Shown here: positions 12,149 to 57,234 of the stretch, one piece after another
Layout of the letters: each line of letters opens with the position of its first letter
Position numbering within the stretch: the stretch's first letter is position 1
Assembly: GCF_018408855.1 (NCBI RefSeq)
Contig: NZ_AP024322.1
Coordinates: 372,001-436,000, forward strand
DNA from: Caballeronia sp. NK8
GTDB taxonomy: Bacteria; Pseudomonadota; Gammaproteobacteria; Burkholderiales; Burkholderiaceae
Length of the DNA stretch: 64,000 nucleotides
Direction of reading: 5' to 3'
Notes under the pieces: model-generated
The model's database searches: none
Told to the model about the DNA's origin: nothing
What the model saw: only the letters and a program-made list of their open reading frames with translations
Position numbers and translations under genes: made by a program

Positions 12149-12712
12149 ATGGGTCACCGCTTGAGCAAGATCGCCACGCGTACCGGCGATGATGGGACCA
12201 CGGGGCTGGGCGATGGCAGCCGCGTGTCGAAGGACGATGCGCGCATCACCGCGATCGGCGATGTGGATGAGTTGAATTCGTGTATCGGCGTTTTGTTGTG
12301 TGAGCCGATGCCTTCGGACGTCAGAGCGGCACTGACGCAGATTCAGAATGATTTGTTTGACCTCGGTGGGGAGTTGTCCATTCCGGGGCATTCGATGATT
12401 CAGGAATCGCATCTCGCGCGACTGGATGCCTGGCTGGAAGAGTACAACGCGACGTTGCCGCCGTTGAAGGAGTTTATTTTGCCGGGTGGGTCGAGGGCGG
12501 CGGCTCTCGCTCACGTTGCGCGGACGGTTTGTCGGAGAGCGGAGAGAGCGATTGTGACGTTGGGACGTGCAGAGACCAAGGGAATCAATGAGGCGCCGCG
12601 GCGGTATGTGAATCGGTTGTCGGATTTGATGTTTGTGTTGTCACGAGTATTGAATCGCGTTGACGGTGGCGTCGACGTTCTATGGGACTCGCCTAGAGGG
12701 TCGAATGCTTGA
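12149..12712 (+). CDS. Cob(I)alamin adenosyltransferase, PduO type
   Basis: The enzyme transfers the adenosyl group of ATP to cob(I)alamin or cobyrinic acid diamide to make the B12 coenzyme. The 187-residue product has the PduO-type ATP-binding N-terminus, TRTGDDGTTGLGDGSRV at about 8-24, then DVDELNSCIG, and in the C-terminal half the arginine-rich helix CRRAERAIVTL followed by RYVNRLSDLMFVLSR. The start ATG 12149 has CAGGGAG upstream; the much longer open frame is antisense to the flavoprotein gene. Codon use in the second half is noticeably less GC-biased (for example GTT TTG TTG TGT). A strong terminator follows. The gene is monocistronic and divergent from the hydroxyacid operon. Confidence 0.93.
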   Translation: MGHRLSKIATRTGDDGTTGLGDGSRVSKDDARITAIGDVDELNSCIGVLLCEPMPSDVRAALTQIQNDLFDLGGELSIPGHSMIQESHLARLDAWLEEYNATLPPLKEFILPGGSRAAALAHVARTVCRRAERAIVTLGRAETKGINEAPRRYVNRLSDLMFVLSRVLNRVDGGVDVLWDSPRGSNA

Positions 12713-12756
12713 CGGATTGCACTTCCTTCTCATGTCAGTGCCATCATGATGTCGGG

Positions 12757-12793
12757 GTAAGCGGTCGGCGTTTGATCCGACCGCTTACTGATT
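12757..12793 (+). terminator. Intrinsic terminator after the adenosyltransferase gene
   Basis: A perfect 12-bp stem, GTAAGCGGTCGG (12757-12768) with CCGACCGCTTAC (12777-12788), has an 8-base loop and is followed by TGATTTT. It lies between convergent genes and probably also helps stop aroG transcription from the other side, although the T tract is only good in the plus direction. Confidence 0.85.
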
Positions 12794-13867
12794 TTAATTG
12801 CCCCCGCCGCGTACTACTCGCCGTTGCTTGACGGCTTCCGCCAATCCCTCAAGCACCTTCACGCTCTCATCCCACCCAATACAAGCATCCGTAACGCTCT
12901 GCCCGTAGGTAAGCTCACATCCTTCCTTCAAATCCTGCCGCCCAGCAACAAGATGCGATTCAACCATCACTCCAACAATCCGCTCATCGCCGGCCGCGAG
13001 TTGCTTGCCAATATCTTCGCAGACAGGAATCTGATTCTCATGCTTCTTCGAGCTATTAGCATGACTCGCGTCAATCATTAAGCGCGCCGCCAGACCCGCC
13101 TTCCCAATATCACTACAAGCAGCATCGACACTCGCCGCATCATAATTAGGCGCCTTACCGCCGCGCAAAATGATGTGGCAATCCTCATTCCCTGCAGTCG
13201 AAACAATCGCCGAATGCCCGCCCTTGGTCACGGAGAGGAAATGGTGCGGCTGCGAAGCCGCCTTGATCGCATCGACAGCAATCTTCACATTGCCATCAGT
13301 GCCATTCTTGAACCCGACCGGGCACGACAACCCAGACGCCAGCTCGCGGTGAACTTGAGACTCCGTCGTTCGCGCCCCGATCGCTCCCCACGAAATCAGA
13401 TCGGCGATGTACTGCGGGCTGATCATATCGAGATATTCGGTACCGGCAGGCAACCCGATCTCATTGATCCGCATCAGCAACTCACGCGCGGCCCGCAAGC
13501 CATCGTTGATCTTGAAGCTGTTATCCATATGCGGATCATTGATGAGCCCCTTCCAGCCAACTGTCGTGCGCGGCTTCTCGAAATACACCCGCATCACGAT
13601 CTCGAGTTCACCAGCAAACCGCTTACGTTGCTCGATCAACCTCCCCGCGTACTCCATGGCAGCCTTCGGATCATGAATCGAGCAAGGCCCGATGATCACG
13701 ATCAACCGGTCATCCATCCCATGAAGAATGCGATGCATCGACTGCCGCGCGTTGTAGATCAGCTCGGAAACCGGCTCGGCGCAAGGGAACTCGCGGATCA
13801 GATGCGCGGGCGGGGTCAGCTCTTTCAGCTCACGGATACGAACATCATCGGTATTGTGCGGGGGCAT
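12794..13867 (-). CDS. aroG: 3-deoxy-7-phosphoheptulonate (DAHP) synthase, class I
   Basis: DAHP synthase joins phosphoenolpyruvate and erythrose 4-phosphate, the committed step to chorismate and thus to Phe, Tyr and Trp. The 357-residue protein is of the E. coli AroF/G/H type: DDVRIRELKEL at the N-terminus (the allosteric region), LIVIIGPCSIHDP near 57, RVYFEKPRTTVGWKG near 92, ESQVHRELASGLSCPVGFKNGTDG read in parts near 180-205, and DASHANSSKKHENQ near 265. Which amino acid inhibits it cannot be told from sequence alone. The ATG at 13867 has a GGAGAA site upstream. Expression is probably controlled by the attenuator at 13911-14040. Its third codon positions are less GC-rich than those of its neighbours. 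Confidence 0.97.
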   Translation of the reverse strand: MPPHNTDDVRIRELKELTPPAHLIREFPCAEPVSELIYNARQSMHRILHGMDDRLIVIIGPCSIHDPKAAMEYAGRLIEQRKRFAGELEIVMRVYFEKPRTTVGWKGLINDPHMDNSFKINDGLRAARELLMRINEIGLPAGTEYLDMISPQYIADLISWGAIGARTTESQVHRELASGLSCPVGFKNGTDGNVKIAVDAIKAASQPHHFLSVTKGGHSAIVSTAGNEDCHIILRGGKAPNYDAASVDAACSDIGKAGLAARLMIDASHANSSKKHENQIPVCEDIGKQLAAGDERIVGVMVESHLVAGRQDLKEGCELTYGQSVTDACIGWDESVKVLEGLAEAVKQRRVVRGGGN

Positions 13868-13910
13868 GTCGGTTCTCCAACGGCAACGTTCTAATCAAAC
13901 TATGAGACGA

Positions 13911-13942
13911 AAAAAAACCGCCAGACTCGCTGGCGGTTTTTT
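13911..13942 (-). terminator. Attenuator terminator (segments 3:4) upstream of aroG
   Basis: On the minus strand a stem of CCGCCAG (13936-13930) with CTGGCGG (13924-13918), extended by six A-U pairs, has a 5-base loop and ends in a run of seven U. It sits 43 bases before the aroG start codon, so it must be read through for aroG to be expressed. It also faces tldD from downstream. Confidence 0.92.
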
Positions 13943-14037
13943 CGGGAATTCGGTCTTTTCAACCTGTGTACGACTCACCCCTCTCGATCCGCCAGCGGCT
14001 TGAGATGCCAAAAGAAATAAAAATAAAACTTGGCGGA
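13928..14037 (-). promoter_or_regulatory. Translation-coupled transcription attenuator of aroG
   Basis: Three alternating pairings are possible in the minus-strand RNA. Segment 1, UCCGCCA (14037-14031, codons 2-4 of the leader peptide), pairs with segment 2, UGGCGGA (13994-13988). Segment 2, as CGCUGGCGG (13997-13989), can instead pair perfectly over 9 bp with segment 3, CCGCCAGCG (13936-13928). Segment 3 is the 5' arm of the terminator. A ribosome stalled on the aromatic codons 5-11 would mask segment 1 and favour 2:3, allowing aroG transcription. A ribosome that reaches the stop codon would cover segment 2 and allow the terminator. This is the known logic of the trp and pheA attenuators, applied here by inference. 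Confidence 0.9.
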
Positions 14038-14040
14038 CAT
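13975..14040 (-). CDS. Aromatic-rich leader peptide of the aroG attenuator
   Basis: A 21-residue frame begins with ATG at 14040 and ends with TGA. Residues 5-11 are FYFYFFW, encoded by TTT TAT TTT TAT TTC TTT TGG: seven consecutive codons for the three aromatic amino acids whose pathway aroG opens. The peptide then runs HLKPLADREG. The ribosome binding site is weak. The peptide itself probably has no function beyond sensing charged tRNA supply. It was found by reading the sequence; it is too short for usual gene callers. Confidence 0.88.
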   Translation of the reverse strand: MSAKFYFYFFWHLKPLADREG

Positions 14041-14078
14041 GATGGATCGAAGGCGTGTCGAAAAAAGTTGTGACTGCT

Positions 14079-14108
14079 TTTATAACCGCAAACGTACGGC
14101 GCTGACAA
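14079..14108 (-). promoter_or_regulatory. Sigma-70 promoter for the aroG leader
   Basis: On the minus strand TTGTCA (14108-14103) is followed after 18 bases by TATAAA (14084-14079), or after 17 by TTATAA. Transcription would begin near 14072, about 32 bases before the leader peptide and 205 bases before aroG. Confidence 0.75.
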
Positions 14109-56806: not shown

Positions 56807-56960
56807 GTGAAACGCTCTCGCGGAACAATTGGGCGAAAAACGTTTCAGGGCATTGCAAACAGACAGAACGACACCCCACGGCGACGCGCCGGCAAGGCGC
56901 GGCGTCGTCCGGTTCGGCGCGATGCGTGAATCGCCGGGGGAACGGACTTGACTATCTGCA

Positions 56961-57115
56961 CATCTTCTCTCATCCGGACTATGACCGTCGGCTCTGGCAT
57001 CTCACCAGATCTGCTGACCCCGCGCGTGATGCGGCGCGGGCGCTCGCGGGCTCGAGGTTCGGCCGCGAGGCCTCGCCACTTACCGCCGGTGGGGAATTGC
57101 ACCCCGCCCTGAAGA
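56961..57115 (-). ncRNA. FMN riboswitch (RFN element) upstream of ribB
   Basis: Read on the minus strand, the element starts AGGGCGGGGTGCAATTCCCC near 57107, continues with ACCGGCGGTAAG, and ends with GTCAGCAGATCTGGTG and GACGGTCATAGTCCGGATGA near 56970. These are the conserved arms of the RFN element. It ends about 155 bases before ribB. Binding of FMN should reduce ribB expression, by terminating or hiding the ribosome site; which, I cannot tell. Confidence 0.96.
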
Positions 57116-57234
57116 CGTACTGAATGCCGGCAAGCCGAACAGGCTCGACAGCTTTTTCAGGATACCGCACGTGCGAAATTTTTGCACTGCCGCATGGATC
57201 ATCGTTCCGGAAAACGACATGCGCAGCGAGCACG

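Follow-up and report, generated by a model that had tools for sequence, protein, structure and literature searches.

Layout of the aroG locus

How the first committed step of aromatic synthesis is regulated in many Burkholderia relatives is the question raised by the region upstream of aroG in Caballeronia sp. NK8. In the window analysed here (the whole stretch of 64,000 nucleotides), aroG occupies 12794..13867 on the minus strand and encodes a type I DAHP synthase of 357 aa, as judged from profile matches (NCBIfam NF006723, 600.2 bits with a cut-off of 568; TIGR00034, aroFGH; Pfam PF00793). AroG catalyses the first step in the synthesis of the aromatic amino acids, and a short ORF upstream of the gene contains codons for these end products. 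As read from sequence, the element containing this ORF is very probably a ribosome-mediated transcription attenuator of aroG.

All parts of the element lie on the minus strand. A candidate sigma-70 promoter was found at 14079..14108, with TTGTCA at 14108-14103 and TATAAA at 14084-14079 separated by a spacer of 18 bases; the promoter-like boxes described in a first-pass annotation are thus present, and transcription would be expected to start at about 14074-14071. Of 147 distinct leaders, 107 have a -10-like box, TA[TC]AAN, at most 75 nt to the 5' side of their ATG. The leader ORF consists of 21 codons followed by TGA (ATG to TGA, 13975..14040) and encodes the peptide MSAKFYFYFFWHLKPLADREG; identical or similar ORFs exist in relatives. 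Its residues 5-11 are FYFYFFW, as had been claimed for the ORF running from 14040 to 13975, and are specified by the control codons Phe-Tyr-Phe-Tyr-Phe-Phe-Trp at 14008..14028. No other run of at least four aromatic residues occurs in any of the six reading frames of the 64-kb window. The short ORF is rich in codons for the end products. Three of the four Phe codons in FYFYFFW are TTT, which makes up 79% of the Phe codons in leaders versus 14% of the 661 Phe codons in 41 long ORFs of the window.

Between the leader ORF and aroG, the first gene, a predicted intrinsic terminator is located at 13910..13939. It is composed of AAACCGCCAG (13939-13930), the loop CGAGT, CUGGCGGUUU (13924-13915) and a T tract (13917-13910), which holds eight T and not the seven counted before. 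A terminated leader RNA of roughly 160 nt is predicted. The 3:4 pairing in the terminator is CCGCCAG:CUGGCGG, extendable by A:U pairs. Segment 3 (CCGCCAGCG, 13928..13936) can alternatively form 9 bp with the antiterminator strand, segment 2 (CGCUGGCGG, 13989..13997), and the 2:3 and 3:4 pairings exclude each other by this common segment. The folding energy of the terminator is -19.5 kcal/mol, that of the competing 2:3 structure, inner helices included, -27.7 kcal/mol, and the leader RNA as a whole is more stable than dinucleotide shuffles (z -3.59; 1 of 200 shuffles equally stable). A simple promoter/terminator scanner reported neither the promoter of the aroG leader nor its terminator, probably due to a rule by which the -10 box has to end in T and the T tract is counted outside the stem.

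The upstream gene is tldD (15668-14202, minus strand). An inverted repeat, CCGCATCGGAT ... ATCCGATGCGG, lies 3' of tldD at 14183-14136 (minus strand), separates this gene from the aroG promoter and probably is the terminator of tldD itself. On the other side, a 13-pair hairpin (12756-12789) is situated between the convergent aroG and cobalamin adenosyltransferase (about 12155-12712) genes, possibly a terminator serving both. The window also contains an FMN riboswitch at 56958-57120 (minus strand; Rfam RF00050, 107.2 bits), positioned 5' of an ORF of 245 aa (56806-56069) that, from one of its motifs, we take to resemble ribB.

Distribution of the leader among relatives

The first-pass annotation had called for a search for the leader frame and the pairing segments in related genera, and both were found to be conserved well beyond the genera it proposed. 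A detector combining an aromatic-rich short ORF with a terminator was run on 228 aroG upstream regions (30 from the genus, 80 named, 18 and 40 from family and genus, 60 from the order), a set that includes close relatives and some genomes twice. It matched 175 of the 228 regions. Among the controls, a match was given by a single reverse strand out of 228 and by three shuffles out of 684. Under a stricter setting (at least six aromatics in eight residues) 166 upstream regions, no reverse strand and no shuffle were matched. The named loci came from Caballeronia, Paraburkholderia, Burkholderia, Trinickia, Mycetohabitans, Pararobbsia, Ralstonia, Pandoraea, Cupriavidus, Collimonas, Vallotia and others. 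Among the best 80 of the named aroG matches listed, all 80 had an upstream ORF in which four or more of eight residues are aromatic, and 79 had a terminator within the scripted range.

By genus label, the element was present in 19 of the 22 family genera examined, g4 being left out, and was absent from g9, g12 and g18, for which one, two and three genomes, respectively, were inspected. In other families of the order it was recognised by reading in 22 of 60 aroG-bearing genomes, belonging to 13 families, where the 60 had been drawn, mostly as best-scoring, from 93 with a match; the script alone found it in 18, and the four others had longer terminator loops. Elsewhere in the class, an aromatic leader was accompanied by a terminator-like match in 1 of 20 sampled aroG upstream regions (L279). 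The genome of Caballeronia sp. NK8 itself has one clear copy (128.3 bits, the next candidate reaching 25.6; scoring covered 150 of the 2725 first-look candidates), and no such leader ORF was found in the 600 bases upstream of its second DAHP synthase gene.

These counts bear on the simplest alternative, in which the hairpin would be a mere terminator of the upstream tldD transcript, preceded by a chance ORF. Such an arrangement would fit the orientation of tldD, which is that of aroG, and its distance of 94 bases to the promoter box. However, tldD has its own hairpin behind it, the detector controls are near zero and the conservation contradicts the idea, so that we regard it as extremely improbable.

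Covariation of the antiterminator

The conservation of segments 2, 3 and 4 upholds the 2:3 and 3:4 pairings proposed earlier, both of which are present in the window sequence, and the 2:3 pairing in addition covaries across families. Each leader was divided into five parts: the N-terminal region, the bases following the aromatic codons, segment 2, the bases following segment 2, and segment 3. In the swap test, the own partner of each leader was compared with partners exchanged between species, using 46 leaders from 14 families. For 2:3 the own partner was better than the swapped ones (0/5000 permutations), also outside the family (12/5000) and with one leader per family (8/5000). The same was observed with 29 new leaders (2/5000), with 17 leaders from genera new to the analysis (0/5000) and with one leader per new genus (15/5000). 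The covariation between segments 2 and 3, together with the use of segment 3 by the terminator as well, supports an antiterminator exclusive with that terminator. Inside the family alignment alone no covariation of 2:3 was found: 92.3% of the cells are paired and no pair is changed on both sides. For the terminator in this alignment (42 sequences), 99.8% of the cells are paired and two of ten pairs are changed on both sides.

Structures around segment 2

The first-pass annotation had also proposed a 1:2 helix in which segment 1, UCCGCCA (14031..14037), pairs with 13994-13988. These 7 bp, UCCGCCA:UGGCGGA, do exist in the window sequence, and 91.9% of the cells pair in the 42-sequence family alignment, with no pair changed on both sides. 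The swap test gave no excess for this helix with the 46 leaders (485/5000), outside the family (3249/5000) or in new genomes (4807/5000), and the helix is lost in Trinickia (L065, L084). The pairing stands for the sequence in which it was noticed; as a conserved element of the whole order it finds no support in the swap tests, and within the family the N-terminal 1:2 helix would be no more than a supplement.

An alternative was seen in two four-mers, a pyrimidine one following the aromatic codons and a purine one following segment 2, which are frequently complementary (UCUC:GAGA, UCCC:GGGA, UUCC:GGAA, UUUC:GAAA). In the window these are UCUC (14002..14005) and GAGA (13982..13985), the 5' and 3' arms of a possible hairpin enclosing segment 2. 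Both four-mers could be defined in 37 of the 46 leaders. Outside the family the match was exact in 9 of 14 (permuted mean 3.9; 81/20000), and with one leader per family in 6 of 10 (423/20000). Since the rule had been devised after inspection, it was fixed and then applied to 40 new loci, of which 29 could be parsed and 19 had both four-mers. There, 9 of 19 matched (mean 4.0; 79/20000), four of the nine matches being from genera already used; the match was not significant in new genera only (5/12, mean 2.5, 1397/20000) or with one leader per new genus (4/9, mean 2.0, 2310/20000). A swap test on the duplex energy of the hairpin was negative (4578/5000), an unregistered helix test was not significant (437/5000; new genomes 2387/5000), and the hairpin is weak in folding. 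Taken together, the four-mers are suggestive of a UCUC:GAGA-type hairpin around segment 2 in place of the 1:2 helix. The purine stretch behind segment 2 was also considered as a Shine-Dalgarno-like sequence and rejected, its value of -6.57 versus -5.93 for shuffled sequences being hardly beyond composition.

Predicted translation of the leader and position of the ribosome

At the leader ATG, a Shine-Dalgarno sequence of -6 kcal/mol or better was found in none of 147 distinct leaders (mean -0.33). At the aroG start, 106 of 147 reached this level (mean -6.41). Translation of the leader must therefore be independent of a Shine-Dalgarno sequence. For the ilvB leader of C. glutamicum, a start by another route is indicated by the title of a study cited in the accessible part of PMC4046766. 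In some families a -10-like box was noticed by eye very near the ATG, and the leader there may be nearly leaderless.

The distance between the control codons and segment 2 is fixed within narrow limits, the gap from the end of the last aromatic codon to the core of segment 2 being 8-17 nt, with a median of 11, in all 75 parsed leaders. Shuffling these stretches produced a gap of 8-17 nt in 1163 of 15000 cases, and 9913 had no core motif. With the edge of the ribosome set 15 nt beyond the first P-site base, segment 2 would be free while 451 of 539 aromatic codons are read, versus 833 of 1662 codons of all kinds; with other footprints the share for aromatic codons was 76-94%. Since segment 2 had been looked for behind the cluster, part of this share follows from the procedure itself.

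Nine leaders were folded with the footprint of the ribosome blocked. The 2:3 pairing formed at most aromatic stall positions and did not form while the ribosome covered the stretch behind the cluster, so a stalled ribosome does free segment 2 in these foldings, with exceptions at some stall positions. In the window leader, 2:3 is reduced to 3.5 pairs with the ribosome at F10 and to 2.2 at W11. Weak 2:3 was also obtained in L100 (at most 2.4 from Y8 on), L172 (0.3 at W12, 0.0 at F13), L212 (2.5 at Y13) and L224 (a dip to 2.6 at F6). Folding of the ribosome-free RNA gave 4.3-7.4 pairs of 2:3 in seven of the nine leaders (4.7 in the window leader), 1.1 in L100 and 0.0 in L172. Since 2:3 forms without a ribosome, the protecting structure being weak, an untranslated leader might read through. 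With the ribosome at the stop codon, segment 2 is uncovered again in L091, L087 and L100 (7.0-7.2 pairs). Judging from these foldings, the analogy to trp appears to hold well for stalling and less well when the leader is not translated.

Amino acids encoded in the leader

Aromatic richness was an acceptance condition for the 175 detected leaders; the mix of aromatics was not conditioned. Their 84 distinct peptides contain Phe in 84, Tyr in 83 and Trp in 58 cases, and in the best eight-residue cluster of each the numbers are 84, 81 and 52. The aromatic order differs among genera (FYFYFFW, FFYFYFW, FYFWFY, HFWFFYW, FWFYFY, FFFFFYYF). Trp lies inside the cluster in 135 of the 175 leaders. The statement that the leader carries codons for all three aromatic amino acids thus applies to this genome and to these 135; in the other 40, Trp was lost or never gained and is optional in the leader. 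Clusters without Trp are found in four of four named Pandoraea and in six of twelve named Cupriavidus, which have A, S or G instead. A link between the Trp codon and the copy number of DAHP synthase was considered and is contradicted by G165, with two copies and no W.

It is conceivable, with a probability that we place somewhat below even, that Phe and Tyr are what the leader mainly senses and that its Trp codon is incidental here, with little or no response to Trp. The 40 of 175 best clusters lacking W (it is present in those of 52 of the 84 distinct peptides) and the replacements in Pandoraea and Cupriavidus agree with this, as does the folding with the ribosome on W11, in which 2:3 is already cut to 2.2 pairs. 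In the analogous aroR leader of C. glutamicum, a response to Phe is reported and none to Tyr, one of the two amino acids listed (PMC11802643, accessible part). Against it stand the 135 leaders with W in the cluster and the different places that W takes in separate genera (FWFYFY, FYFWFY, CFFWFYF), a pattern that suggests selection.

The action of the peptide itself, as an arrest peptide or in trans, with the RNA pairings secondary, was also weighed. The tail PLADREG or a near form is frequent among the leader peptides of the family, and a Sinorhizobium trp leader peptide with a function in trans has been described (PMC7298713, accessible part). However, the tail letters encode segment 2, and the tails of other families differ. 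In L005/L032 (one genome twice), L042, L043 and L165 the tail is in another frame while RNA segments 2-4 are kept, although these leaders are from drafts and assembly errors in T runs are possible. The freely variable order of the aromatics together with the frame-changed tails on a retained RNA argues for the sensing of tRNA charging and not for an arrest peptide, and we consider an acting peptide very improbable.

Loss of the leader in small genomes

Within 56 genomes of the genus group having an aroG orthologue (with an upstream view of 200 bases for G026), the strict pattern was intact in 45 of 47 above 5.2 Mb and in 4 of the 9 that are smaller (Fisher p = 0.0006). In one of the two large-genome exceptions, G040, the peptide is present behind another start codon. 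At L017 (G003, 3.5 Mb) leader and terminator are wholly missing and promoter-like boxes adjoin aroG, and from its sequence this locus appears to be a natural deletion of the attenuator in a reduced genome. In two small genomes, G044 and G045, aroG itself is in pieces, so that the loss of the leader is in part general erosion. Damage was also noticed in Candidatus Vallotia cooleyia (L094), where the leader ORF is cut short (MLAKFYFIF) and the terminator stem altered; the leader of Ca. B. humilis is frame-changed and, like that of Ca. Vallotia, looks damaged.

Proposed mechanism

Conservation, covariation of 2:3 and the spacing of control codons and segment 2 support the earlier reading of the element as an attenuator of the trp/pheA type, with the following predicted function. 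RNA polymerase would start at about 14074-14071, and a ribosome would translate the leader. When charged tRNA-Phe or tRNA-Tyr (here also tRNA-Trp) is short, the ribosome would stall on codons 5-11 and leave segment 2 largely free; 2:3 would pair, no terminator would form and aroG would be transcribed. When aromatics are plentiful, the ribosome would cover segment 2, 3:4 would pair and transcription would end at about 13910. The UCUC...GAGA hairpin behind the control codons may hold segment 2 when it is unwanted, like the 1:2 hairpin of trp.

Attenuation could be real and the terminated leader RNA additionally act in trans as a small RNA. Such an RNA of about 160 nt is predicted, and the terminated leader RNA rnTrpL of Sinorhizobium reportedly works in this way. 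Yet the present sequence data give no pointer to targets, and we think this additional role improbable.

More broadly, the entry to the shikimate pathway in Betaproteobacteria (here the order Burkholderiales) might often be controlled not by repressors of the TyrR/TrpR type but by one ancient sensor of the charging with several amino acids, working without a Shine-Dalgarno sequence, in which the aromatic codons are interchangeable, with Phe and Tyr nearly fixed and Trp gained or lost by lineage, and segment 2 is held in the loop of a dedicated hairpin. This generalisation is tentative, and we doubt it more than we believe it, the lack of significance of the hairpin in new genera alone having lowered our estimate. 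Reconstructed TrpR and TyrR regulons are described for gammaproteobacterial lineages (PMC5343134, accessible part).

The attenuator reading would give a concrete answer to how many relatives of Burkholderia regulate the first committed step of aromatic synthesis. The leaders also form a large natural data set on attenuation by several amino acids, covering codon order, gain and loss of Trp and losses in reduced genomes. As the element would limit aroG expression when aromatics are plentiful, it could be useful to know in the engineering of shikimate flux.

Comparison with known systems

The E. coli trp leader has an ORF with control codons, a 2:3 antiterminator and a 3:4 terminator, and serves one amino acid in a terminal branch. 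The E. coli pheA leader likewise shares these three features with the aroG leader and differs from it in reading one amino acid of a terminal branch. The E. coli leaders of ilvGMEDA and thrA are multivalent like the aroG leader, each reading more than one amino acid of a single pathway, and the pathway differs.

At gathering thresholds no Rfam family matched the leader region. The best score below threshold was that of Leu_leader (27.7 bits, cut-off 50), and Phe_leader (RF01859) reached 17.0 bits with a cut-off of 55. In searches of the open-access literature, outside which most subscription papers lie, no account of a betaproteobacterial aroG leader was recognised; this coverage includes the accessible parts of Sass 2015 (PMC4603805) and Sass 2017 (PMC5688073), and neither aroG nor aroF occurs in the accessible main text of Naville and Gautheret 2010 (PMC2965389). 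The attenuator before aroG is thus well supported and apparently undescribed.

Attenuation at DAHP synthase genes has been considered in other bacteria, which are compared here by description, from the accessible parts of the sources. In E. coli, attenuation of aroF was proposed (Camakaris 1980, cited in PMC8632094), and aroF of Shewanella is among attenuation candidates (PMC2659441); both likewise concern a DAHP synthase, but are from Gammaproteobacteria and have the status of a hypothesis or a prediction. The motif uORFC-13-1 before aroF of Acholeplasma (PMC8632094) likewise joins an upstream ORF and a terminator at a DAHP synthase, and differs from the aroG leader in its distant phylum and other structure. 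The nearest parallel is the aroR leader before aroF of C. glutamicum (Neshat et al. 2014, as described in PMC11802643 and PMC4046766), a ribosome-mediated attenuator of a DAHP synthase gene with aromatic leader codons (Phe-Tyr-Phe); unlike the present case, it belongs to an Actinobacterium and has three aromatic codons in place of seven, with no Trp named. As predicted from sequence, the aroG leader joins the ribosome-mediated attenuators as a broadly distributed member that uses several amino acids per leader.
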